60,364 bases of DNA from assembly GCA_029238785.1 (NCBI GenBank), contig JAQWFN010000060.1, forward strand, positions 1 through 60,364, given 5' to 3'. Positions 1 to 10,948 of the stretch are shown here, one piece after another; position 1 is the first letter of the stretch, and each line of letters begins with the position of its first letter. Source of the DNA: Flavobacteriales bacterium (GTDB lineage: Bacteria > Bacteroidota > Bacteroidia > Flavobacteriales_D > Sanyastnellaceae). The position numbers and the translations under genes are program-made. Under the pieces are notes generated by a model. The model was given only the letters and a program-made list of their open reading frames with translations. It ran no database searches and was not told the origin of the DNA.

Positions 1-380
1 GGGATGTCGGCAGTGAGCCGCTCATTCAACAAAGAAGAACCAGCATTCCCTGGTAAAACACGCACGTTAAAACTCATGGTGGCATCATTCGAAATCACGG
101 GATGGTTGACCAAGGAGTTGTAAGAAGATGAAATCGTTCTGAAATCAGGTTCAAAGGTGCCGTCATGACAGCCAGAGTTAGCACAAGTTGGAGCAAAAAT
201 CTTCCCGTGAAGCCAAGCAAAATTACCAACGGGAATGTCGTTCACACTCGGGTTGTCAACCGCTACAGTTCGAACAATTTCGTCGTATGGATTCTCTGGC
301 TCGTCTTTCTTGCAAGAAGAAAAAAGTCCGATTGAAATACCAACAACCATCAGGATTACAAGGCTTATTGATGATCTCAT
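1..380 (-). CDS. Lipoprotein with CX4CH cytochrome-c-like motif (partial, C-terminus cut)
   Basis: A leftward reading frame opens at ATG 380-378 and runs off the left edge of the window; about 126 residues are visible. It starts with a hydrophobic leader ending in a lipobox (GLFSSC, Cys around residue 22), so it is probably an outer-membrane or periplasm-facing lipoprotein. Around residue 60 it has TCANSGCHDG, a CX4CH motif of the kind seen in the small cytochrome-c-like domains of Planctomycetes and Bacteroidota, so covalent haem binding is possible but not shown. The ATG lies directly after the TAG stop of the DUF1501-like gene (381-383), so the two are almost certainly co-transcribed and translationally coupled. 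The remaining domains lie outside the window. Confidence 0.75.
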   Translation of the reverse strand, partial: MRSSISLVILMVVGISIGLFSSCKKDEPENPYDEIVRTVAVDNPSVNDIPVGNFAWLHGKIFAPTCANSGCHDGTFEPDFRTISSSYNSLVNHPVISNDATMSFNVRVLPGNAGSSLLNERLTADI

Positions 381-1715
381 CTAGATGTAATTAAATAAAG
401 ATTGCGTACCAGGAGCAATAAGACCAGCATTTTGAACCTCAGGCATTACTCCAAGAATATCGGCGATGGTCATCATAGAATCGGTCACTTGGCCAATAGG
501 ATTCCCCTCGTTTCCAATAATCAAATTCGATGGTGTAGTAGGACCAGCCATCAAGCTAAATACACGCATGGAGTTCATGTCTGAGTGGTCGTAAGCTCTC
601 CAATCGTTCACATCAAGGATGTTGTTTGGGTTGAGGTTTCGACCACATTCTGGAGTGGCGATGATGGTGGTATTTCCTGCCATCTCGGGGATTTCATTTT
701 GAATAAAGTTCCACAAATGCCCAACGCCATGGTCGGCACGGTGCAAACTTTGAAGGTATCCTGTGAAATCTGAATGACAACCGTCTACATTATTCAAGTT
801 CACCACAGTAAGCGCCGGTTTGAACCATTTTAAAAGCTCACAAGTATAGCCTAAGGTGGCCGTGTCGTTATTGTCTGTTAAAGGGGGATGAGCAATGGTA
901 CCGTTTTGGGTTTTCGTGAACATCTCTTTCATGAAGGCCTTGATGTTCTGCTTCTCGTCTTCTGTATTGCCTAGTGATAAAAGTCCGTTTCCATAGTTCT
1001 CAAAAGAATTGTCAAGAAATTCTTTAAGGGCATACATCGGGGAAAGTTCATTTTCTGGGTGATAGACTTTCGCATCGCCCAAAAACTCTTGCCCAGTAGG
1101 ACCAAAAGTTACCGATGGAGCAAAGAAGTTAGCCCCATATTTTGCACCGTAATCCTCATGAGCACTGTAGTTAAGAAGAGGAACTGAATTCGCAATTCCA
1201 TTTCCAACAAACCAAGTATCGGTAGCACTCATGCCACCATGCCTACGTAAATACTCAAAAATCGTGGGATTAACCGGTCGATTTTTAAGTCCTTGAGTTG
1301 TCACCGTAGATCCCTGAACCAAGCTGTTCAATCCGCCAAAATGCCCAGCACTTAAGGCTTGAACCTCCGCAAATAGGGTGCCTTGCTCTTGTAAAGTAGT
1401 GGGGAGAATGGAAGGAATAGGAGAGATTCCACCTTGCCCAGTACCATAAACAATCTTTTGCGTTGGGGCATCACCAGAGAACATGTTGTACATGATGTTA
1501 CCCGGGTAAGGTTCGTTGATCTGACTGTCGTCCAGATAGCGTTGTAGTACCGACTCCTGTTGTCTTACTCCACCAGCGAACATCACTAGAACAACGTGCT
1601 GACTCATTTGCCTTCCGCTAGCAGCAAATAATCTTCCGCTCGGCAAGATGTAAGGAATACTTACACTCGCTGCCGCTGTTAAACCAGCCTTTTTAATGAA
1701 TTCTCTTCTTTTCAT
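381..1715 (-). CDS. Tat-exported DUF1501-like protein
   Basis: The 444-residue product begins MKRREFIKK followed by an Ala-rich hydrophobic stretch, a twin-arginine export signal, so it is probably folded in the cytoplasm before export. The C-terminal third has features resembling DUF1501, a family with an alkaline-phosphatase-like fold: VDGCHSDF, HRADHGVGHLWN, a TPECGRN segment (compare SEFGR in DUF1501) and YDHSDMNSMRVF, ending with a stretch around ADILG. No enzymatic activity is established for this family. It sits 11 bp after the 167-residue lipoprotein and abuts the CX4CH lipoprotein, as DUF1501 proteins in Planctomycetes and other bacteria sit beside DUF1549/DUF1553/DUF1800 and cytochrome-like proteins. 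Assignment is by motif and is moderately sure. Confidence 0.65.
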   Translation of the reverse strand: MKRREFIKKAGLTAAASVSIPYILPSGRLFAASGRQMSQHVVLVMFAGGVRQQESVLQRYLDDSQINEPYPGNIMYNMFSGDAPTQKIVYGTGQGGISPIPSILPTTLQEQGTLFAEVQALSAGHFGGLNSLVQGSTVTTQGLKNRPVNPTIFEYLRRHGGMSATDTWFVGNGIANSVPLLNYSAHEDYGAKYGANFFAPSVTFGPTGQEFLGDAKVYHPENELSPMYALKEFLDNSFENYGNGLLSLGNTEDEKQNIKAFMKEMFTKTQNGTIAHPPLTDNNDTATLGYTCELLKWFKPALTVVNLNNVDGCHSDFTGYLQSLHRADHGVGHLWNFIQNEIPEMAGNTTIIATPECGRNLNPNNILDVNDWRAYDHSDMNSMRVFSLMAGPTTPSNLIIGNEGNPIGQVTDSMMTIADILGVMPEVQNAGLIAPGTQSLFNYI

Positions 1716-1726
1716 TGCTCTTGGGT

Positions 1727-2230
1727 TTAATAGTACATGTACTCGTCCGACAATGCGAAAGAGAAGTAAACAATCTCTGGGGTAACGTAGGGGTTGTTTT
1801 CAATGAAGTTTTTCATGTAAGTTTTCTCTGCTTCTGTGGGGAAACGCACATAAAATCGCACGTAAGTGTCTTCTATGAATTGCTCAATGTCGGCATTCAT
1901 TTCTTCAACACTTGGCAATTGAACGGCCGGATCGTTCATGAAATTACTAATGATGACCTCACGAGCTAATTCTTTGTCTCCGATACTTTCGATACAACGG
2001 TTAACGTCGTAAACATCGTTTGCTGATAATGCGGTTTGGAACAAGTTGGCATGAAGAATGGCCACAAACTGTTCGTTGGTTTTTTCTTTTGTTTTGTCTG
2101 CGCTTGAAGGGTACAGTTCTACATCATTCAAGATGAAACTCGCCTCTGGCTCTGGCTTGCAAGAGACCAAAAGAGCGAAGCACAAAAGGAGGGATATCCC
2201 ATATTTAGTCAAAGCCTGCATATTCATCAC
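1727..2230 (-). CDS. Lipoprotein with FYVRFPTEAE motif, DUF1549/1553-like module
   Basis: A 167-residue lipoprotein (hydrophobic leader ending LLVSC, Cys about residue 24). Its C-terminal half contains YVRFYVRFPTEAEK and ends FALSDEYMYY; these closely resemble segments of the preceding 303-residue lipoprotein (FFRFPTSAEL, LLISDEYAGF), so the two appear to be paralogous modules. The L-x-R-x-P-T-x-x-E pattern recalls DUF1549/DUF1553/DUF1800 proteins that accompany DUF1501. The frame overlaps the upstream gene by 26 bp; starts at 2230, 2227 or 2221 are all possible and give nearly the same leader. Function unknown. Confidence 0.7.
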   Translation of the reverse strand: MMNMQALTKYGISLLLCFALLVSCKPEPEASFILNDVELYPSSADKTKEKTNEQFVAILHANLFQTALSANDVYDVNRCIESIGDKELAREVIISNFMNDPAVQLPSVEEMNADIEQFIEDTYVRFYVRFPTEAEKTYMKNFIENNPYVTPEIVYFSFALSDEYMYY

Positions 2231-3116
2231 TAATTAAGAGGGTTCGTTGAACTTCTTTGAAATTATAGTTATTGCTGAAGGGCACCACGAGATCAAAAAC
2301 CTCATTACTTGTTGGAGTCCGGGCAAGTAGAGATTCGTATGCCCAAATGATCATTCCTTCATCAAATTCAGCGCTTCCAACAAGTAGGTCGACATATTCC
2401 GGTTTTGTTTGGGCTAAACTTCCAAAAAGAGAAGCGGGCTGATTAAATTCTATGATTTGGTATGCTGCATCAAGTTCAGCACTTGTTGGGAAACGAAAAA
2501 ACAAATCGTTGAAAGTGGCATTAACAAAGTTAAAACTGTTCATGTTGATTTCATCATAAATGGCGTTGACGAGCATTCGTTTCACCATTTCATCGATGAG
2601 TATTTCGCCATTCATCAATTCCGATCGAGCGTTTTGAACTGCTTCTATGCGATTTGCTTCTGCCATATTTAACTCATAACCAGATAAATTTCCATTGATG
2701 GAATCAGCAATCGCTTGTCCTCGAAATATTCCATATTGAAAACTTAAAACATCTTCAGAAGCCCCTTCTAAAAAGCGTGCTTTCAAATCGTCATAAAGTT
2801 TGATGTGGTAAGCGAAAGTGTAAGAACTATCTCCTGGAAGAGGGTCGCTATTAAAAATCAACTTGTTCACCAAGGCTGTTCTTGCCTCAACACTGAGGTC
2901 TGCTAATTCTAAGGCAGCAACTTCAGCGCTCATTTCTGTGTCAAGGGGTTCTCTTCCGATGAGATCTATAAACGCGCGGTTGACATAATTTTGCACAATG
3001 ACTGTAGGGATCTCATTGTAAGGGGGAATGGTATTGTTTTCATAAACAACTTCCTCCTTCTTGCAAGATAGAAGACTGATTATGAACATTGAAATGACAA
3101 GTAGTCGAGCACGCAT
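2205..3116 (-). CDS. Lipoprotein with three R-x-P-T-x-E type repeats
   Basis: A 303-residue lipoprotein (leader ending ISLLSC followed by KKEE, Cys at about residue 18). Three related segments can be seen: FIDLIGREPLDTE (about residue 50), FNDLFFRFPTSAEL (about 205) and AYESLLARTPTSNEV (about 265), each followed by a helical stretch. The L-G-R-x-P pattern is typical of the planctomycete-type DUF1549/DUF1553 and of DUF1800 proteins, though the protein is much shorter than those families. It is the first gene of the run into the second lipoprotein, the DUF1501-like protein and the CX4CH lipoprotein. A weak -7 box (TATATTTA) lies at 3142-3135. Function unknown; probably a partner of the exported DUF1501-like protein. 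Confidence 0.7.
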   Translation of the reverse strand: MRARLLVISMFIISLLSCKKEEVVYENNTIPPYNEIPTVIVQNYVNRAFIDLIGREPLDTEMSAEVAALELADLSVEARTALVNKLIFNSDPLPGDSSYTFAYHIKLYDDLKARFLEGASEDVLSFQYGIFRGQAIADSINGNLSGYELNMAEANRIEAVQNARSELMNGEILIDEMVKRMLVNAIYDEINMNSFNFVNATFNDLFFRFPTSAELDAAYQIIEFNQPASLFGSLAQTKPEYVDLLVGSAEFDEGMIIWAYESLLARTPTSNEVFDLVVPFSNNYNFKEVQRTLLISDEYAGFD

Positions 3117-3180
3117 GAGTTTCAGCTTATCTGCTAAATATAACGAAAACTCTTGGCTTTTCGTTGCCTGCGTTTTCTAC

Positions 3181-6100
3181 TTAGTGGCTTACCAAAAGTT
3201 TGACTTTTTTTATTTGTCCTGCAGATTGTAAGGTAACGAAGTACATTCCCGATTCTAGGTTACGGGTGTCAAGTGTGAATTGACGTGCTTTTACCTCCAT
3301 GTTTAAGAGTACCTTCCCTTGGGCATCTAATACAAATGCGCGTTCAATCACTTGGTTATTTATCACATGGGTTGAAGCATTACTTGGGTTCGGAAAAAGA
3401 CGTCCATCAAATTCATTTTCTTCGATGTTGTTGATGATAACGTCGATTTCATTCGAAAGCGTACTGCATCCAACATCATTGAGGAGTTCTAAGCTATATA
3501 ATCCGTCCACTAAGGGAGCATAAACTGATCCGTCGGCTTCTGGAATTAGCTCTCCTTCGAGGTACCACTGGAAGTCAAATGATCCGCAGTCTTGACAGAA
3601 AAGTGTCCCTGTAATGTCATCAAATAAGACCACAGGTTCATCAGGGACATTAAGAACGTTTATTTCATCAACAGTAAACGAGGTTTCAAAACCAAACAAA
3701 GTGTAGATGTATTCTATAGCATATGAACCTAGGGAAGGGAAGCTAATGGTAATTTGAGGTGTACACTCCTCAGAGAGAAGTTCACCGTTCAAATACCAAG
3801 CACAAATAGCATCGGGGTGAATTGATGGGGCAGCCGTTGCAATTAAGTCTTCACCGACACAAACGTCATTGGAGTTCAAATCAAAGAAGGCACTTTCAAA
3901 GAAACATGTGCCATCATCTTCTATTGCTGATTCGTTATAATTGACTGCGTTTGAATCAGTGCAACCTTGAGGTAAATTAATTTCAATTGATGCTGGAGAA
4001 CTCTCACACCCAGCGGGATTGATTTGAATCAAACTATACAATCCACTTTGATTCAGCATTATATTTTCTCCATCAACCTCAATCTCTTCACCATTTAATA
4101 ACCATTGTAATGTGTTTGTTTGGTCGCAATTAGCACAGGTCAATTGATAGTTAAGGTCATCATAGTTCAAATCTGCAGTCTCTGGTATTGCGGTAAACTG
4201 GATGTTGTTCACTTCGAAAGTGGTTTCAAAGCCGTACAAAGTGTATGAGTAACTAATATCTACGATACCGGGTTCAGTTAAGTTGTATGTGAAGGAATCG
4301 ACACATTCATTCTCAACCAATTCTCCGTTAATGAACCATTCGCAAGTAGCTTCTGGGTCGATGGTTGTTTGATTGTTTATGATGAGCTCATCAGGAATGC
4401 AAACCGTAGTAGTGTTGACACTAAAGGAGGCTTCTGAGAAGAAACAAGTTCCATCATCTGTGTTTGCTGAAATATCATAATTCACTGCTTCAGGATTTGT
4501 ACATCCGAAGTAGACGCAAGGACCAGAAAGATCAGCGAGGGGATTGTAGTTGTCTGCATTCTCATCCATACATCCTTCTATAAAACAAGTTCCATCATCT
4601 TGATTTGCCTGAGGATCAAAGTTGTCGGCCAATTCATCTGTGCATCCGAGGTAGATGCAATCACCTTCTTGGAGGGCTTCAGCATTGTAATTATCAGCAA
4701 TGGGGTCCATACAACCTATGATGAAACAAGAGCCATCTTCCCAATTCGCAGCAGGGTTGTAATTATCATTATTTGGGTCAGTGCATCCTGCAAACCTACA
4801 TGAGCCATCATCCGTATTTGCTTCTGCATCGTAATTAAAAGCAAGCGGGTCTGTACATCCAGGCAACTCGTTTCCAGTATACAGATTCATTCTCACCATG
4901 GGATACTTGAGCATGTAGCCACCAAAATTGTTCAATTCGTAATTAACGAAAGATGTAAATGGTATCGCATCTCCGCTTCGTGCAACGATCATCCGTTCTC
5001 CAGGGTTTGTGCTGCACTCAACCGTAACGAAATAGTTTGTATCAGGAATGAGTGTGACAGGCTCAATTAAAGGTATGTGAACCATGAAGTTTTCTCCAAC
5101 TCCATTAAGGTCAAAGGAGTTGATAACATAGTCTTCGCTTGTACCATACTGTATGCTATCGTTGTTGAAATAATAAACAGATGCGCGAACACTAGTACCT
5201 ACAAAACTACTATCTCCAAAGGCCACAGATATATCGTGAAGGCGCAAGTTGTTCTGGTCTACCACATAAACGTTTCCAATGCGATAAGCAGAATTCGTGT
5301 AACCTACATTAGGCATAAATTGGTCCTCCATTTGGCCCTCATCAATACCTAGGCTATGTTCAGTAATGGTAAAGTCTTTACTGGCAAAATTATTCCCTAT
5401 GGTTTGGTCTTCTTGGTCTTGCTGAAGTGCAAAATCAATAACATAATCTCCGGTAACTGCAGGAGGTGTCCAAGGTGCCAACTGCCAGTTGTTGCTTTGG
5501 CCGGGTTGGAGGTCTTCTTCCGGAGAATCGTTGGAAAACACATTTGTAATACCACGGTTAACTTCAACAGAGAGTTTTGTGTTGGTTTGAACCAAACCTC
5601 CAATATTTTGTCCTCGAGCTCTAAACTCCATTTGAGGAAGCATGTTTAATGGATAGAAGTGGTATTCTTGGTCGGCGTAATTGTTTAAAAGGTTTTGTTC
5701 GAAGGTGCTGTAGTTCGCGCTATACAGCACTAGGTCGTTATCACTAGGTTCAAAAATGGTAATGTTGTCAATCATCCACCAATAATAGAAGCCATCGAAC
5801 TCAAATCGAAGCCTTACGTCGCTTTCACCTCCGGCAATTCCGGTTAAGGCCAAAGAAACCCACTCCACATTAGGGGAGTTGGTGATGCCGTCAGCGCTAT
5901 TGTCTTGCAGCAATTCAAAGTCACCACCATTCACAGAAATGAGCACTCGAGTTACCGTGCTTTGACCTTGTGAGAAATAATGTCTGTATTGTTGTTGAAA
6001 GGTGAGCGTTGCCTCGGGATTATTTTCAAGGCTGAAGCTATTCGTAGTGAGGCTGGCATAGTGTGGTCCGGGGGCTGGACCTCCACCAATGTTTCCTCCG

Positions 6101-6420
6101 CAAGCGCCGCCATCGTCATCCCAATAATTTGAATCGAAAATTAAAAAACCATCTGCCAAGGTTTCGGAGTTCAGAACCACAGATCCAGCACCGCACGATC
6201 CTCTCGAGGCAATTGCGTTTGAAGGAGTGGTATTCGGACCGCGATATTCCCATTGTGAGATGCCGTCGGCACTTTCGTTCACCCAGTTCTCTGGAATACC
6301 GCTGAAGAAGGTCCATTCGATAATTGGTGTGCCGAAGACTTGAGCATTTGTTGTGCTGGACAGAGAGCTCATGAACACGATGTTCAAGAGCAGGATGATA
6401 AAGTTAGATGTGTGCTTCAT
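3181..6420 (-). CDS. Large T9SS-secreted Cys/Asp-repeat protein
   Basis: A 1079-residue secreted protein. A signal peptide (cleavage about TTNAQ, residue 26) is followed by a beta-rich region that resembles a MAM/jelly-roll-like adhesive domain (about 30-230) and a CARDB-like region. Six tandem repeats of about 23 residues with the pattern GCTDPxAxNYxxxAxxDDGSC lie near residues 517-660, and a seventh copy near 818-842. The segment after repeat six (VCIPDELI, CEWFINGEL, LYGFETTFEVNNI) is duplicated after repeat seven (VCVGEDLI, CAWYLNGEL, LFGFETSFTVDEI). The C-terminus (FPNPSNAS, VLDAQGKVL, SGMYFVTL, KKVKLLVSH) is a type A T9SS sorting domain, so the protein is exported and probably anchored or released at the surface. 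An adhesin role is an inference. It has its own promoter at 6437-6467. Confidence 0.85.
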   Translation of the reverse strand: MKHTSNFIILLLNIVFMSSLSSTTNAQVFGTPIIEWTFFSGIPENWVNESADGISQWEYRGPNTTPSNAIASRGSCGAGSVVLNSETLADGFLIFDSNYWDDDGGACGGNIGGGPAPGPHYASLTTNSFSLENNPEATLTFQQQYRHYFSQGQSTVTRVLISVNGGDFELLQDNSADGITNSPNVEWVSLALTGIAGGESDVRLRFEFDGFYYWWMIDNITIFEPSDNDLVLYSANYSTFEQNLLNNYADQEYHFYPLNMLPQMEFRARGQNIGGLVQTNTKLSVEVNRGITNVFSNDSPEEDLQPGQSNNWQLAPWTPPAVTGDYVIDFALQQDQEDQTIGNNFASKDFTITEHSLGIDEGQMEDQFMPNVGYTNSAYRIGNVYVVDQNNLRLHDISVAFGDSSFVGTSVRASVYYFNNDSIQYGTSEDYVINSFDLNGVGENFMVHIPLIEPVTLIPDTNYFVTVECSTNPGERMIVARSGDAIPFTSFVNYELNNFGGYMLKYPMVRMNLYTGNELPGCTDPLAFNYDAEANTDDGSCRFAGCTDPNNDNYNPAANWEDGSCFIIGCMDPIADNYNAEALQEGDCIYLGCTDELADNFDPQANQDDGTCFIEGCMDENADNYNPLADLSGPCVYFGCTNPEAVNYDISANTDDGTCFFSEASFSVNTTTVCIPDELIINNQTTIDPEATCEWFINGELVENECVDSFTYNLTEPGIVDISYSYTLYGFETTFEVNNIQFTAIPETADLNYDDLNYQLTCANCDQTNTLQWLLNGEEIEVDGENIMLNQSGLYSLIQINPAGCESSPASIEINLPQGCTDSNAVNYNESAIEDDGTCFFESAFFDLNSNDVCVGEDLIATAAPSIHPDAICAWYLNGELLSEECTPQITISFPSLGSYAIEYIYTLFGFETSFTVDEINVLNVPDEPVVLFDDITGTLFCQDCGSFDFQWYLEGELIPEADGSVYAPLVDGLYSLELLNDVGCSTLSNEIDVIINNIEENEFDGRLFPNPSNASTHVINNQVIERAFVLDAQGKVLLNMEVKARQFTLDTRNLESGMYFVTLQSAGQIKKVKLLVSH

Positions 6421-6436
6421 TGAAGGGTATGAGTCT

Positions 6437-6467
6437 CAAAAATAGCAAAAGACTGCTTGAAGCACAA
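6437..6467 (-). promoter_or_regulatory. Promoter for the large T9SS protein
   Basis: Reading leftward there is TTG (6467-6465), a 20-bp spacer, then TATTTTTG (6444-6437), matching the Bacteroidota -33/-7 pattern TTG and TAnnTTTG. It ends 16 nt before the ATG at 6420. Confidence 0.6.
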
Positions 6468-6489
6468 GATTATAGCTCAAGTTAGAGCA

Positions 6490-6520
6490 AAAAAAAACCT
6501 CGACAAGCGAGGTTTTTTTT
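6490..6520 (-). terminator. Rho-independent terminator after the LPP20-like gene
   Basis: An AACCTCG/CGAGGTT stem (6496-6502 and 6508-6514) with a 5-nt loop is flanked by A-rich and T-rich runs, so it can act in either direction. It lies just after the gene ending at 6541, read leftward. Confidence 0.8.
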
Positions 6521-6540
6521 TATTTATGTTATTTCAAACC

Positions 6541-7131
6541 TTAGTTTCCTAATTTTTCCATCTCAGCTTCAAAGGTTTCTTTGAACTTTTCGTAGTTGTA
6601 CTCAGCTTTGATACGCTCATCCTTAGACAAACTCTCGTTGTACGCTTGAGCCACTTCGTCTCCGGATAGTTCTAGGGCGATGTAGTTCACATAGTTGCCG
6701 TTTGCTTTTTGAGTTGTTTGCTCACAAATGGTGATTGCACCACGAAGCTTTTGATCAACTACTGTTCTTGCTAGGTTGTTAAACGTCTCGGTAACTTCTT
6801 CTTTATTGTTGAAAGTAGAAGAGTTAACGTAATTATCGGTAACAATTTGCATTGTTGCAGAGATGGTTCTAGCCAATTCGTCTTCGGCATTCGAACGCGC
6901 TTTTTTCTTAGCTGTTTCTCTGCTCATGGATTCACCTGTGGCAGAAGCTCTGAAGGTTTTGTTGTCTGAAAAGTACTTATCTCCAGTACAATACTCATTG
7001 ATGAGTACTTCACCAACTGGTTCCTTTGGCTTTTCAACTTCTTTGTTTCTTTTACAGCTTGTGAAAGCGATTGATAAAATGAACAACCCAAGTAGGAAGC
7101 CCAAATTTCTTGTTGAAGTGATTTTTTTCAT
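6541..7131 (-). CDS. LPP20-family-like lipoprotein
   Basis: A 196-residue lipoprotein (hydrophobic leader ending FTSC, Cys about residue 26). The core has SATGESMSRETAKKKARSNAEDELARTI, the short charged alpha/beta motif with an A-x-x-x-A-x-x-x-L helix typical of the LPP20 family, and it ends in a charged helical tail. It is the last gene of a four-gene envelope run with a longer LPP20-like protein, a CsgG-like protein and a DUF4476 protein, and is followed by a strong terminator. In other bacteria LPP20 lipoproteins (for example FlgP) assemble into outer-membrane-associated rings; a similar assembly here is an inference. Confidence 0.75.
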   Translation of the reverse strand: MKKITSTRNLGFLLGLFILSIAFTSCKRNKEVEKPKEPVGEVLINEYCTGDKYFSDNKTFRASATGESMSRETAKKKARSNAEDELARTISATMQIVTDNYVNSSTFNNKEEVTETFNNLARTVVDQKLRGAITICEQTTQKANGNYVNYIALELSGDEVAQAYNESLSKDERIKAEYNYEKFKETFEAEMEKLGN

Positions 7132-7172
7132 TGTCGGTTGTTTAAATTGAGTAATCCATAAACTGTGCCAAA

Positions 7173-8534
7173 TTAGAAAATTGCATCAACAATATCCTTG
7201 CAAATGTCTTTTTCTATTTGTTTGGCTCCTTTTTTAAATGCTTCTATACCCGCCGCTCTATAATTGAGCTGCAGTCCTTTAATATCGTTAATTGCGCTTT
7301 GATAAATGATGTCATCTCTAGTGTTTTTCACGAGGATACTCATGTTCAAGTAGGCCACATGAAAACCCTGTGAAGTTCCGCCTTCTCTCGTTTCAGCAGA
7401 GATATAAACAACATAGTCTGCTTGATCAATTCGATTGGTGAACGTATATCCTTCAGCGCTCAATTTTTTACTTACTGCTGAGGCCAGCCATAACTGATCT
7501 TCATTGTCTAAATTAATTTCTGTACTTGTAATAAATATCACCGGCATCCTGAGGGAAATAGGAGCTCTAGTTACCGGGTTTTGTAGTGTATTAACGAGAG
7601 GGTTAATTAGCTTTGGGTCTAAATCGCTAGGCACAAGATCTTCAAGGTCCAAAACTACTTCCAACTCATTTTTAAAGTTCTTTGGGTTGACATCTCTAAT
7701 AGGTAAAGAGGCATAGCCACTTGGGTCTGACCTAAATTGTTTGTACTTCTTAAATCTGCCGTCATCAAATTTGTAATTGTGAAGTGCATTGGGTACTGGT
7801 TTTCCATCTAGGGTGACGCTCACTAAAGCCTCTGTTTTAAAACTATTGTCGGGATTCACTTCAAGACTTGATGGTGTGATTTTCAGATCAATGTTATTCA
7901 CCATTTGTCTAATATGGCTGAAGATTTCGTTGTCTAAAAACACTTTTTGCCCTTCGTAAGTGTATTCATTCACTTCATTCCAATATGCAGTGAGTTCAAA
8001 AAGACCACGAAACATGAGATCAAATGCTGCGCTTAAATTGCCTTCTGCTTCTGCTGTTCTTCCTTTGGTGTAAAAATCAGCAGCACTGTTCATGGCCAAG
8101 CGCTTCTTTTCTTCTTTAATAGCGGCGTGCTGAGCTTTTGATAAGCGATAAAAAATCCAGTATTCATTTTTATCTTCCCAAGCGCCAACAATTTCGAAGC
8201 CTTCTAATTTTTCTTCAGTATATGTTGCAATGTTTGAAGTAAACTCCTCTCGAAAGAAATTGTTTGTTTCCATTGTGTTGAGAAAAGATGAACTTTTCAC
8301 TGTTACACTAATTTCAGAACTTAAATCATCCAATGCGTTCTTCTTCGCAGACTGTGCAAAGTTCACAGGGTCCAACTGTTTCGAAGCAGAGCCTATGCCA
8401 ATATAATAGCTATTGTCAATGGGGCGCTGATCTACCCAGCCTGGCTTCGGTGCTTCTGTTTCTTGAACGCCCTTGGGTGTACACGCCAAAAGCATGGTAA
8501 CAAGGAAGAAATATGTGATCTGTTTCAAATTCAT
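7173..8534 (-). CDS. Long LPP20-like lipoprotein
   Basis: A 453-residue lipoprotein (leader ending LLAC, Cys about residue 18). The N-terminal domain (residues about 30-130: PGWVDQRP, YYIGIGSASK, FAQSAKKNALDDLSSEISV) is a recognisable LPP20-type domain. It is followed by a TPR-like helical stretch (about 145-190), a beta-rich region and a C-terminal domain with ADYVVYISAETREGG. Its ATG overlaps the TAA of the CsgG-like gene by one base (8534), implying coupled translation and probable assembly together. It is longer than stand-alone LPP20 proteins, so the C-terminal part may be a partner-specific addition. Confidence 0.75.
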   Translation of the reverse strand: MNLKQITYFFLVTMLLACTPKGVQETEAPKPGWVDQRPIDNSYYIGIGSASKQLDPVNFAQSAKKNALDDLSSEISVTVKSSSFLNTMETNNFFREEFTSNIATYTEEKLEGFEIVGAWEDKNEYWIFYRLSKAQHAAIKEEKKRLAMNSAADFYTKGRTAEAEGNLSAAFDLMFRGLFELTAYWNEVNEYTYEGQKVFLDNEIFSHIRQMVNNIDLKITPSSLEVNPDNSFKTEALVSVTLDGKPVPNALHNYKFDDGRFKKYKQFRSDPSGYASLPIRDVNPKNFKNELEVVLDLEDLVPSDLDPKLINPLVNTLQNPVTRAPISLRMPVIFITSTEINLDNEDQLWLASAVSKKLSAEGYTFTNRIDQADYVVYISAETREGGTSQGFHVAYLNMSILVKNTRDDIIYQSAINDIKGLQLNYRAAGIEAFKKGAKQIEKDICKDIVDAIF

Positions 8535-9907
8535 TAGGGCACAAGTTCTGTCATCAATTGTTCAATGTCTCTTCTCATTTCGTTACCAAGAACCTGAAAA
8601 GCGTCGTTGGATAATTGGTCTACGCTTTTTAGGTCTCTTCTTGCACTAAACAAGGAAACCAGTTCTTGTTTAGCACTTCTCGACGTGTTTGCTCCGCTAT
8701 TTCCTGCGGGGAATAAATTACGAATGTCTCCATCGTAACTGGCATAATGGATTTCGTCTTTTACTTCGCGTTCAATAATTCGAGATTTAAGGATTTCACC
8801 GGTTTTCAAACTTACCACCTTGTACTGGAAAGAAACTGTAACAAGATTCTGTCCAACGAATTCGTCGTAACTTTTTTGACGATACTTGGTTTGGTAGAAA
8901 ACCTTTCCAGTTTCTTCGTTGATACGTTTTACTTGGTATTGTTCGTAGCCTACTCGGTTATAGCGTTGTGGTCGGCCAATCGACTCTCCATAACTCAATA
9001 TAGCGCCGGAAATTATCGCCTGAGCACCAATAATCTGTCCTACAGATACAGCGGTTTCTTCGTCCATTATTCCCGATAAACCTAGTTTCTGTTCTTCTAA
9101 AATGAGCTCAATATTATCTCGGTCAACTATTTTCAAGAAGGGGTCGTTAGCACCAGTAAGCGCCTCTAAAGTATAGGCGCTCATTTTTACTTCCAGCCCA
9201 CTTACTCTTGTTCCATTGTCAAAAGGGAGTAGCGCCATGGTGAACAGTCCATTGTCAAGTGCGGATTGACGAAGGATGTTTGCTTCCTTGTAATCGGTTT
9301 TACGAGAAATAACCTTGCTGAATTGATTGTAAGCTTTTCTAAACTGTTCGTTCTCGTAGGCTTGAACGGCATTGATATAAATGGGCTCAACATAGGCTAC
9401 ATCAGCTAATTCGTGCGCATCTTCAAAGCTTGGATCCAATCGTTTTATTTCAACAAATCGCTTTTCTGCTTCGTTGAACTCACCCTGATCCATCAATTCT
9501 AATCCTTCTTCATAGATCTCCGCAACATAGTCGCTTTTAACCAAGTCATAATCTTTCTGGTACATTGAAGGCACGTCGAGCTGAACACCAACATTAGCCA
9601 CTTTGGCTTTCAATTTCATCGCTTCTTCCCATGCTGTTATGGCTTCTTTTTTATCTCCAAAGCTTTTCTTTTGAACAAACTCGTTCAGCATTGAGTTCAG
9701 CACCACCTGACCAGCACCTTTCATCCCAATTTTTGCATCCACGTTGTTGCGGTTTTTTTGCAAGGCAACGTAGTACATGTTAGCTGCTTCTTCAACGAGT
9801 CCGGCTTCTTCTAATTTTGAACCTTTTTTATAAAAAGATTTTGAAGTGGCACATGATACAAGTAAAGCAATGCTCAGAAGATATATAAGTAGGCGAGAGA
9901 ACTTCAT
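8534..9907 (-). CDS. CsgG-family outer-membrane lipoprotein with N-terminal TPR-like repeats
   Basis: A 457-residue lipoprotein (leader ending LLVSC, Cys about residue 19). Residues about 25-215 form helical TPR-like repeats (GSKLEEAGLVEEAANMYYVAL; GEFNEAEKRFVEIKRLDPSF; NEQFRKAYNQFSKVI). The second half (from about 222) is CsgG-like: ALLPFDNGTRVSGLE, KIVDRDNIELILEEQ, QIIGAQAIISGAILSYG, VSFQYKVVSLKTGEIL. CsgG proteins form outer-membrane secretion channels or, as in LpoB/FlgO-like relatives, structural adaptors; the TPR extension suggests the adaptor kind. It lies 24 bp after the DUF4476 gene and overlaps the LPP20-like gene by one base. Confidence 0.8.
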   Translation of the reverse strand: MKFSRLLIYLLSIALLVSCATSKSFYKKGSKLEEAGLVEEAANMYYVALQKNRNNVDAKIGMKGAGQVVLNSMLNEFVQKKSFGDKKEAITAWEEAMKLKAKVANVGVQLDVPSMYQKDYDLVKSDYVAEIYEEGLELMDQGEFNEAEKRFVEIKRLDPSFEDAHELADVAYVEPIYINAVQAYENEQFRKAYNQFSKVISRKTDYKEANILRQSALDNGLFTMALLPFDNGTRVSGLEVKMSAYTLEALTGANDPFLKIVDRDNIELILEEQKLGLSGIMDEETAVSVGQIIGAQAIISGAILSYGESIGRPQRYNRVGYEQYQVKRINEETGKVFYQTKYRQKSYDEFVGQNLVTVSFQYKVVSLKTGEILKSRIIEREVKDEIHYASYDGDIRNLFPAGNSGANTSRSAKQELVSLFSARRDLKSVDQLSNDAFQVLGNEMRRDIEQLMTELVP

Positions 9908-9931
9908 ATTAGGCGATGTTTGAAAAGGCGT

Positions 9932-10948
9932 TTACCTCATTTCTATGTATTCATTTAAGTCATCAATGCTGCTTTCGAACTCAAAAGCGTCATAAACAAT
10001 GTAATAGCTATCTGGGTCCATTGCCTTGTCATAGGCATATTGAGCAAATTCAAGTTTGTCTCCTTCAAAAGTAAAAAGAAGCATGATTTCTTTGATCTGC
10101 TCGCAAGTTAGGCACTTGTTTTTAGTGGCCTGCTTTGCGGTAGTCATTTTACTGTCCGAAAAGGTTTTTGACTCAATAGCTCCTTTCATTCTAGTGAATT
10201 CACTCGGAGAAACGGCACAGTTTACAACAATTTCTTCAGGCTCTTGATCAACCCAAGTGGCTGTAGTCATTCTTGGTTGAGCTTGTGTTTGTGTTTGTGT
10301 TGTGCTAGTGGTAGTTGTTACACTCGTTTCTTCACGAATTTCCACGCCCATATCCATGCCCATATCCATGCCCATATCCATGCCCATATCGACATCAAAC
10401 GTTACATCAACACCAGGGACTTTAAGGTCAATTTTAACCTTGTCTTCTGAGCCAGGTGTGTTGATGGTCGTGGTGCTTGTGGTCGTGGTTCTCGTTGTTC
10501 CCGTGCTAGGAGCAGTCATTTCGACGGCAATTTCAGCATCTTGAACCTCTGTTTCTTGAACAGGCACTGAAGTGGGTCTAGGTGGAGCTGGTGGTGCAGG
10601 AGCGCTTACTGCCATGTCCATTTCCGTTTCAGATTGATAACGAAGCACGTATTCTCCTTTACGATTAACTTTAATCATGTATGTCACAAGGAAACCTTTC
10701 ATCACTGCAAAATTCTTGTTAGAAAAGTCAGGAAATGCGGGGTCTTCAAAGTCAACTCTAGCTTGATAAAACTCCGAACTTAATTCGTTTAATTGAACAT
10801 TGCTTTGAGGAGTTTCGTTTTGCTTAACACCATTAAGGTAAAGGGTGAATAACTCTCCGTTTTCGGCGAAAACAACTGTTGCAGCGTTTTGTGCTTGAGC
10901 AGTGAAAAAGCCAAAGAGGCAGATGAGGAGGAAGTAAGATCTTTTCAT
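9932..10948 (-). CDS. Secreted DUF4476-domain protein with a Met-Asp repeat
   Basis: A 338-residue protein with a signal peptide (cleavage about TAQAQ, residue 20). The N-terminal domain (FAENGELFTLYLNGVKQN) is followed by a Pro/Thr-rich low-complexity linker (about 115-230) holding four in-phase MGMD units. The C-terminal domain from about 245 (SEFTRMKGAIESKTFSDSKM, CLTCEQIKEIMLLFTFEGDKLEFAQYAYD) is DUF4476, a Bacteroidota helical domain of unknown function with a pair of cysteines. It is the first gene of the CsgG/LPP20 run and has a promoter at 10968-10997. Confidence 0.8.
   Translation of the reverse strand: MKRSYFLLICLFGFFTAQAQNAATVVFAENGELFTLYLNGVKQNETPQSNVQLNELSSEFYQARVDFEDPAFPDFSNKNFAVMKGFLVTYMIKVNRKGEYVLRYQSETEMDMAVSAPAPPAPPRPTSVPVQETEVQDAEIAVEMTAPSTGTTRTTTTSTTTINTPGSEDKVKIDLKVPGVDVTFDVDMGMDMGMDMGMDMGVEIREETSVTTTTSTTQTQTQAQPRMTTATWVDQEPEEIVVNCAVSPSEFTRMKGAIESKTFSDSKMTTAKQATKNKCLTCEQIKEIMLLFTFEGDKLEFAQYAYDKAMDPDSYYIVYDAFEFESSIDDLNEYIEMR
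10346..10392 (-). repeat. 12-bp in-frame tandem repeat inside the DUF4476 gene
   Basis: About four near-perfect copies of a 12-bp unit (cccatatccatg on the plus strand) encode the MDMG repeats. Its length in codons means copy-number change would lengthen or shorten the linker without breaking the frame. Confidence 0.8.

Follow-up and report, generated by a model that had tools for sequence, protein, structure and literature searches.

We analysed a stretch of 60,364 nucleotides (the window) from a Flavobacteriales bacterium, contig JAQWFN010000060.1 of assembly GCA_029238785.1, and in particular the genes at its very beginning, positions 1-3116, which form the first part of a conserved seven-gene operon. 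A preliminary description of this DNA had reported here a compact four-gene operon of DUF1501 type, reduced in comparison with known systems and with its partner protein split into short lipoproteins. This observation is confirmed in part, and its interpretation is partly supported. Four tightly packed genes are indeed located on the minus strand, with spacing of -26, 11 and 0 bp: F2 and F3 overlap by 26 bp, F3 and F0 are separated by 11 bp, and no gap is left between F0 and F1. Gene names follow this order of transcription (F2, F3, F0, F1) and continue with F4, F5 and F6. G000 denotes the own genome of the window, other G numbers relative genomes, L numbers related loci and C numbers contigs. 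Features of the window are as follows (aa, amino acids; Tat, twin-arginine translocation).

2205-3116, minus strand: F2, helical lipoprotein of 303 aa with a predicted phycobilisome-linker fold and two R-x-P-T-x-x-E segments; weak DUF4214, PBS_linker and DUF1549 matches among its members
1727-2230, minus strand: F3, lipoprotein of 167 aa containing a single R-x-P-T-x-x-E segment (YVRFPTEAE); 33 of 47 members resemble DUF4214
381-1715, minus strand: F0, 444 aa, Tat-type signal, predicted alkaline-phosphatase-superfamily fold; catalytic Asp and nucleophile lost
3-380, minus strand: F1, PSCyt1-like lipoprotein truncated at the contig end; remainder at G000:C131:3-734
165-185, minus strand: CANSGCH (CX4CH), haem-attachment-like motif of F1
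1572-1574, minus strand: Gly48 of F0, in place of the metal-binding Asp of related proteins
774-785, minus strand: D311-G-C-H314 of F0, metal-ligand-like residues kept
639-650, minus strand: E356-C-G-R359 of F0, replacing D-H-G-R of related proteins
579-590, minus strand: D376-H377-S-D379 of F0, invariant Asp/His/Asp close to the superfamily's third metal-ligand position (likely equivalent; the alignment is off by two)
3117-3180, no strand: 64-bp gap between F2 and the upstream gene on the same strand, a possible operon leader region

Base 1 of the window is the end of its contig (C73), and both the operon and F1 are therefore cut: F1 has 126 aa in the window, against some 320 aa in most relatives. 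Another contig of the same genome, C131, matches the window end over its initial 145 bases at 144 positions, and an F5 homologue, 77% identical to F5 of the genus relative G001, was found there at C131:1209-4652. Gene order on C131 is the rest of F1 (3-734), F4 (731-1180), F5 (1164-4655) and F6 (4652-5647). F5 comprises 1163 aa from a TTG start at 1164, or 1157 aa from 1182; F6 has 331 aa. F4, judged by eye, is an immunoglobulin-like (Ig-like) lipoprotein, and that of the own genome has no match in Pfam. The four genes of the window are thus the first part of a seven-gene operon whose remainder lies on C131. Since F1 is cut at the contig end and the rest of the operon follows elsewhere, it is not the compact four-gene operon described at first; nor is it reduced, as it is longer and adds an Ig-like lipoprotein, a type-B protein of the type IX secretion system (T9SS) and a PorP/SprF protein.

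Conservation and joint inheritance of the operon

Scanning of contigs with F0 yielded 287 relatives. Only the best 80 were retained for gene-order counts, so this sample leans to close relatives; all counts refer to loci with room on the contig. In 72 of 73 loci, F2 and F3 immediately precede F0. Downstream of F0, F1 was found in 75/76, F4 in 72/73, F5 in 57/59 and F6, using an operon-specific profile, in 35/54 loci. Two loci have room yet no F5 on the same strand (L070 and L124), the latter (in the G028 record) carrying F5-F6 on another contig. Median intergenic gaps range from -20 to 3 bp. The four genes originally described are conserved together, and their neighbourhood is not a matter of chance.

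Among 60 relative genomes, F0 was detected in 27, two of these copies being truncated at contig ends (G025, G027) and partial hits in G044 and G055 being left out of the count. F1 is present in exactly the same 27 genomes, and F2 in 27 as well, 26 of them common to F0. The mismatches fall at contig ends: the contig of G027 stops inside F0 and that of G029 inside F3. A search for F5 at an expectation value (E) of 1e-30 gave 27 genomes, or 26 after exclusion of G039, where the hit is limited to the C-terminal part of a frame of 6195 aa. Of these 26, 25 also have F0; G029 has F5 without F0. From about half of the 60 relatives, the operon genes are jointly absent. In G058 and G028, F5-F6 is located on a different contig from F0-F4, the pair being retained and adjacent. 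The same arrangement occurs in G052, but F0 there stands at a contig end. Joint function of the operon is best indicated by this persistence of F5-F6 after separation from F0-F4.

At the level of the order, full- or near-full-length F0 was found in 33 of 199 genomes belonging to four families (f1, f2, f7, f13). One more genome (G291) holds an F0 fragment at a contig end. In 40 others, all matches were partial, and almost all of them concerned the C-terminal half of other proteins with a phosphatase fold. In the phylum sample, searched with the F0 profile, full-length F0 occurred in two of 296 genomes, both from the family of the window, with partial matches in 24 others. Within the operon, F0 is conserved best: mean pairwise identity over sampled pairs amounts to 63% for F0, 40-50% for F1-F4, 35% for F5 and 31% for F6.

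The encoded proteins

The signals noted in the preliminary description are present, namely lipoprotein-type signals in F1, F2 and F3 (by eye), a Tat signal in F0 and the CX4CH motif in F1. F0 begins with MKRREFIKK, and a Tat-type RRxF[IL] motif was found in 75 of 81 F0 sequences; the six others comprise three with KRSKF, two with RRxFV and one mis-called start. In L075, L076 and L079, F0 begins with MKRSKFIK, so that the twin arginine is lost and Tat export is less certain.

Structure models were made for F0 and F2. The F0 model (mean predicted local distance difference test score, pLDDT, 80; predicted template modelling score 0.82) gave 424 Foldseek matches at E <= 0.001, headed by sulfatases, lipoteichoic acid synthase and alkaline phosphatases. 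Its best structural alignment was to PafA (5too; Z 26.3, 294 residues, root-mean-square deviation, rmsd, 3.7). As modelled, F0 has the alkaline-phosphatase-superfamily fold. Pfam matches of 50 F0 members at E 1 were to Phosphodiest (15), TAT_signal (13) and Sulfatase (5), the window's own F0 having no match in Pfam at this threshold. Searched by sequence against solved structures, F0 gave weak unrelated matches only, and its profile gave none.

No F0 member among the 50 matched DUF1501 (PF07394, cut-off 27 bits) at E 1, nor was any match to it found in the own genome. Profiles were compared with hhalign after removal of signal peptides, as shared lipoprotein and Tat signals inflate scores among F1-F4 and between F0 and DUF1501, a Tat-type signal being presumably typical of the DUF1501 family. 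F0 scored 39.7 with DUF1501 (probability 44%), over a region holding the D-H, E-x-G-R and D-H motifs; other profiles scored 22.4 or less. Against the second of the two superfamily branches compared, phosphodiesterase-like Bacteroidota proteins of 305-402 aa, the score was 187 (99.7%, 300 columns); this comparison favours the latter relatives, because they were picked with the F0 profile itself. On both Pfam (0/50) and hhalign (39.7 vs 187), F0 does not qualify as a full DUF1501 member, against the original assignment. Structure prediction, proposed there as a check, did give a phosphatase fold for F0 and a linker fold for F2, but the closest relatives found for F0 are phosphodiesterase-like and not DUF1501.

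Comparison of 84 F0 sequences with 26 rows of relatives (23 distinct) at positions which we take to be the metal ligands and nucleophile of the superfamily revealed a consistent loss. The metal-binding Asp, present in 26/26 rows of relatives, is replaced by Gly48 in 84/84 F0, and no Ser/Thr nucleophile is conserved among the 84. Glu356 (83/84) replaces an Asp of the relatives, and position 357, their His, is Cys in 67 and His in 17 sequences. Asp311, His314, Gly358, Arg359 and His377 are invariant, and D, G-R and H motifs are shared with the phosphodiesterase-like relatives; the equivalences of His314 and His377 are likely rather than proven, since the alignment shifts by one or two residues there. 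F0 is a probable pseudo-enzyme retaining part of the metal site. Because catalytic residues are lost and part of the metal site is kept, its probable role is that of a scaffold or of a binding subunit.

F2 and F3 do not carry the L-x-R-x-P-T-x-E motif ascribed to them before; the actual motif is R-x-P-T-x-x-E, occurring as FFRFPTSAE and LARTPTSNE in F2 and as YVRFPTEAE in F3. For the F2 model (pLDDT 93), Foldseek ranked linker domains high, none at E <= 0.001. A structural aligner placed phycobilisome linker chains at ranks 1-33 (3ohw: Z 10.5, 117 residues, rmsd 2.3), and the F2 sequence profile also retrieves phycobilisome linkers, with a best E of 3.5e-5. The fold predicted for F2 is that of the phycobilisome linker (PF00427), to which the window's own sequence scores 17.3 bits, below the cut-off of 28.7. 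At E 0.1, 55 F2 members matched DUF4214 (36), PBS_linker (18), DUF1549 (13), DUF1553 (3) and DUF1800 (2), the best DUF1549/PSCyt2 match having an E of 4.5e-5. Among 47 F3 members, 33 matched DUF4214 and one DUF1553. With hhalign, F2 residues 220-301 aligned with a segment of DUF1800 (39.9, probability 46%, 82 columns); comparison scores were at most 27.7 for unrelated profiles, 32.6 for F3 and 29.1 for PSCyt1-DUF1549-DUF1553 proteins. DUF1549, DUF1553 and DUF1800 may have a linker-type helical domain in common. The partner families DUF1549, DUF1553 and DUF1800 named at the outset are thus recovered as weak, repeated matches of the F2 family, but the window's own F2 matches none of the three. 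A split partner is compatible with these data, yet F2 and F3 match DUF4214, and F2 also PBS_linker, more often than DUF1549.

CX4CH, found as CANSGCH in F1 of the window, is conserved in 82 of 84 F1 frames and is followed by Met-Pro in 80 of 84; CXXCH, which we take to be the typical haem motif of PSCyt1, occurs in none of the 84. The frames without CX4CH are L115, the second fragment of a split frame, and L026; those with CX4CH and no Met-Pro are the window and L071, both truncated at contig ends. In hhalign, F1 aligned with the PSCyt1 region of Bacteroidota PSCyt1-DUF1549-DUF1553 proteins (52.8, 95 columns, probability 85%; other profiles 25.7 or less), and PSCyt1 was confirmed by scan in all four checked proteins of this comparison set. 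The search of F1 against solved structures gave no match. Genes for CcmE, Cytochrom_C_asm (CcmC-like), CcmB and CcmF_C stand side by side in the own genome, all over cut-off. Given the PSCyt1-like CX4CH domain and this Ccm cluster, haem binding by F1, suspected in the preliminary description, is plausible.

The last two genes belong to type IX secretion. F5 comprises a CUB domain, repeats, a PKD-like domain and a type-B C-terminal signal. In the own genome, F5 scores 58.7 bits with CHU_C (cut-off 27) and 31.1 with CUB (cut-off 21.4), and F6 scores 117.9 with PorP_SprF, PF11751 (cut-off 22.3). At L030, the type-B model TIGR04131 recognises F5 (38.3, cut-off 35) and TIGR03519 recognises F6 (131.4, cut-off 90.55). 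A regular expression for the type-B domain matched 44 of 55 F5; five of the 11 misses were inspected by eye and all five look type-B, Pfam being the better test. Both F5 proteins scanned from loci where the F6 profile finds no F6 (L118, L135) keep CHU_C. Type-B C-terminal domain proteins bind PorP-like proteins (PMC9143113). In Flavobacterium johnsoniae, the type-B substrates tested require a PorP/SprF-like shuttle, usually encoded directly downstream (PMC12618676). According to the same work, an orphan type-B protein can rely on a common shuttle whose gene is located elsewhere. A C-x-C tail links SprF to the mobile gliding track (PMC12635249). Since no C-x-C motif was found in the last 30 residues of any of 36 F6 proteins, F5 is more likely static.

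F5-like sequences are not confined to the operon. The own genome contains 37 F5-like matches, mostly to the C-terminal part, which suggests that it holds a large set of type-B surface proteins. F5-like frames also occur near the operon, upstream and on the opposite strand, in L076, L089, L097, L109, L115 and L122.

Immediately upstream of the operon, window positions 3181-10948 carry on the minus strand a T9SS type-A protein (Por_Secre_tail), a short lipoprotein, an LPP20-family lipoprotein, a CsgG-like protein and a DUF4476 protein. The first four of these genes hold their order beside the operon in several close relatives (families F7/F8/F9/F11 in 9/8/8/6 of the stretches compared).

A proposed surface assembly and its alternatives

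The composition of the operon is well supported. For its role, our tentative proposal, in which we place slightly less confidence than doubt, is a Flavobacteriales envelope operon where a T9SS-exported F5 is held by F6 and accompanied by an outer-membrane accessory complex of F0-F4. After export by T9SS, F5 would stay attached to the cell surface through F6, a cognate barrel of PorP/SprF-like type and the product of the adjacent gene. F0-F4 would build the accessory complex at the outer membrane, with F0, exported folded by Tat, probably as binding or scaffold subunit, F2 and F3 as helical linker-type lipoproteins, F4 as an Ig-like lipoprotein, and F1 as a lipoprotein probably carrying one c-type haem (CX4CH, Met-Pro). 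Docked on F6/F5, this complex would form a static assembly at the surface, in which the haem of F1 may transfer electrons or sense a ligand at the outer membrane. What the computation shows is the content and order of the genes, their co-inheritance, the predicted folds of F0 and F2, the lost residues and the families to which the secretion signals of F5 and F6 belong; we infer the physical complex, the haem attachment, the static anchoring and the redox or binding role. The literature searched, which mostly did not extend to subscription papers, held no publication on this operon.

Several observations weigh against this proposal. L129 (8626-9960) is a lone F0, the one locus where F2, F3, F1 and F4 were undetected nearby despite room on both sides. 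The F6 profile finds no downstream F6 in 19 of 54 loci, and in 17 of those 19 F5 lies on the same strand yet no F6 follows; G017 and G037 have F0, F1 and F2 without F5. Obligatory haem attachment is weakened by L026 (1-676, minus strand), a much diverged F1 with CGANNGACH, that is CX6CH instead of CX4CH, the His and Met-Pro being retained. Pfam PSCyt1 (PF07635) matched none of 42 F1 members at E 0.1, so that the cytochrome profile named in the preliminary description is recovered by profile-profile comparison but not by Pfam, and the sole Pfam PSCyt1 hit of the own genome (C122:20486-20644) lies in a 250-aa frame which is not F1. Confidence of the F0 model is uneven, pLDDT falling under 50 at residues 210-245. 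In F1-F4, a loose pattern for surface-export signals, applied with no control, matched 13-31 proteins in each family of 58-70, from which we draw no conclusion.

Gene sets of DUF1501/PSCyt type are found widely but lack an explanation, and it is mainly as adhesins that type-B T9SS proteins are known. With seven strictly co-inherited genes joining features of both, the operon offers a defined system, each part of which can be removed and tested, and whose most conserved protein is a Tat-signal phosphatase fold that has lost catalytic residues. It is conceivable, albeit doubtful, that a surface protein (F5/F6) wired to a dedicated redox module of monohaem CX4CH lipoprotein, linker-fold lipoproteins and Tat-exported pseudo-phosphatase represents a new kind of surface machine, whose logic may explain the DUF1501/PSCyt sets.

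The operon might instead be a DUF1501/PSCyt-type system itself, like those of Planctomycetes and other Bacteroidota, with cytochrome, DUF1549-like and alkaline-phosphatase-superfamily parts encoded separately, acting on a polysaccharide or another surface polymer with F5-F6 as a mere surface-binding arm. Such systems exist in Bacteroidota. Our phylum survey found DUF1501 matches, often partial, in 67 of 148 genomes, and in 19 of 20 fetched DUF1501 stretches a neighbour was taken as DUF1800 type (9) or PSCyt1-DUF1549-DUF1553 type (10), the twentieth, L206, being excluded from the profiles of these systems. All ten DUF1501 neighbours scanned match these families far over cut-off. PSCyt genes lie near sulfatases in freshwater Verrucomicrobia, some with carbohydrate-binding modules (PMC5615132), and chitin synthase genes co-localise with those of DUF1501-DUF1800 (PMC5122149). 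The profile similarities of F1 to PSCyt1 and of F2 to DUF1800, together with the DUF1549 matches of 13 of 55 F2, agree with this view. Yet F0 is not DUF1501 by profile and stands closer to the other branch (found, as said, with the F0 profile), F2 and F3 match DUF4214 more often, and no carbohydrate-active enzyme family appears among the Pfam/NCBIfam hits of the seven genes. We regard this explanation as rather unlikely.

Somewhat less probable still is that F0 remains enzymatically active, its chemistry having changed to a single metal with Glu/Cys ligands. Its substrate would be F5 or a surface polymer, to which it might, for instance, add a phosphate-type group by transfer or from which it might remove one. 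Invariance of D311, H314, R359 and H377, the nearly invariant E356, the restriction of position 357 to Cys or His and the highest identity within the operon would all fit an active site. The Gly at the place of the metal-binding Asp in every F0 and the lack of a conserved Ser/Thr nucleophile argue against this.

Uptake or scavenging of a surface ligand such as haem or iron, F1 binding rather than carrying haem and F5 capturing it, would make use of the conserved Cys-x4-Cys-His and Met-Pro in a lipoprotein and of the several envelope lipoproteins. We consider it improbable, as no TonB-dependent receptor or other uptake family was found among the Pfam hits of the seven genes and the CX4CH domain resembles an electron-transfer cytochrome family. 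We regard it as extremely unlikely that shared ancestry alone, and no joint function, accounts for this neighbourhood. Common descent of the 60 relatives and the many type-B surface proteins of the own genome would fit such a view; near-zero gaps throughout, the F5 kept in G058 and G028 after separation from F0-F4 and the joint absence in about half of the relatives speak against it.

Comparison with known systems

The proposed F5-F6 half of the assembly has counterparts. In sprB-sprF and Fjoh_3952-Fjoh_3951 of Flavobacterium johnsoniae and in PG1035-PorP, a type-B gene is directly followed by a gene of the PorP/SprF family, as F5 is by F6 (PMC12618676, PMC9143113). Unlike SprF, F6 has no C-x-C tail (0/36). 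No PorE/OmpA-like domain was found among the Pfam hits of the seven genes, and F5-F6 is preceded by four lipoproteins, one of them cytochrome-like, and a Tat-signal protein with the predicted alkaline phosphatase fold.

With PafA (5too) and the alkaline phosphatase/phosphodiesterase superfamily, F0 shares the modelled fold, a long profile similarity and the D, G-R and H motifs. It differs in having lost the metal Asp and the nucleophile, in the change of Asp-His to Glu-Cys/His, and in extra segments, a Tat signal and its operon context.

DUF1800 + DUF1501 pairs (Bacteroidota, L197-L205) resemble the operon in the segment of DUF1800 that aligns with F2 220-301, whereas Pfam DUF1800 is reached at E 0.1 by two of 55 F2 only and the six DUF1800 proteins scanned contain no cytochrome domain. 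PSCyt1-DUF1549-DUF1553 + DUF1501 pairs (Planctomycetes; Bacteroidota, L207-L216) likewise bring together PSCyt1-like, DUF1549-like helical and Tat-signal alkaline-phosphatase-superfamily parts. There, however, the first two reside in one long protein with CXXCH, whereas the operon encodes separate short lipoproteins with CX4CH, has its F0 outside the DUF1501 profile and is linked to a T9SS surface protein.

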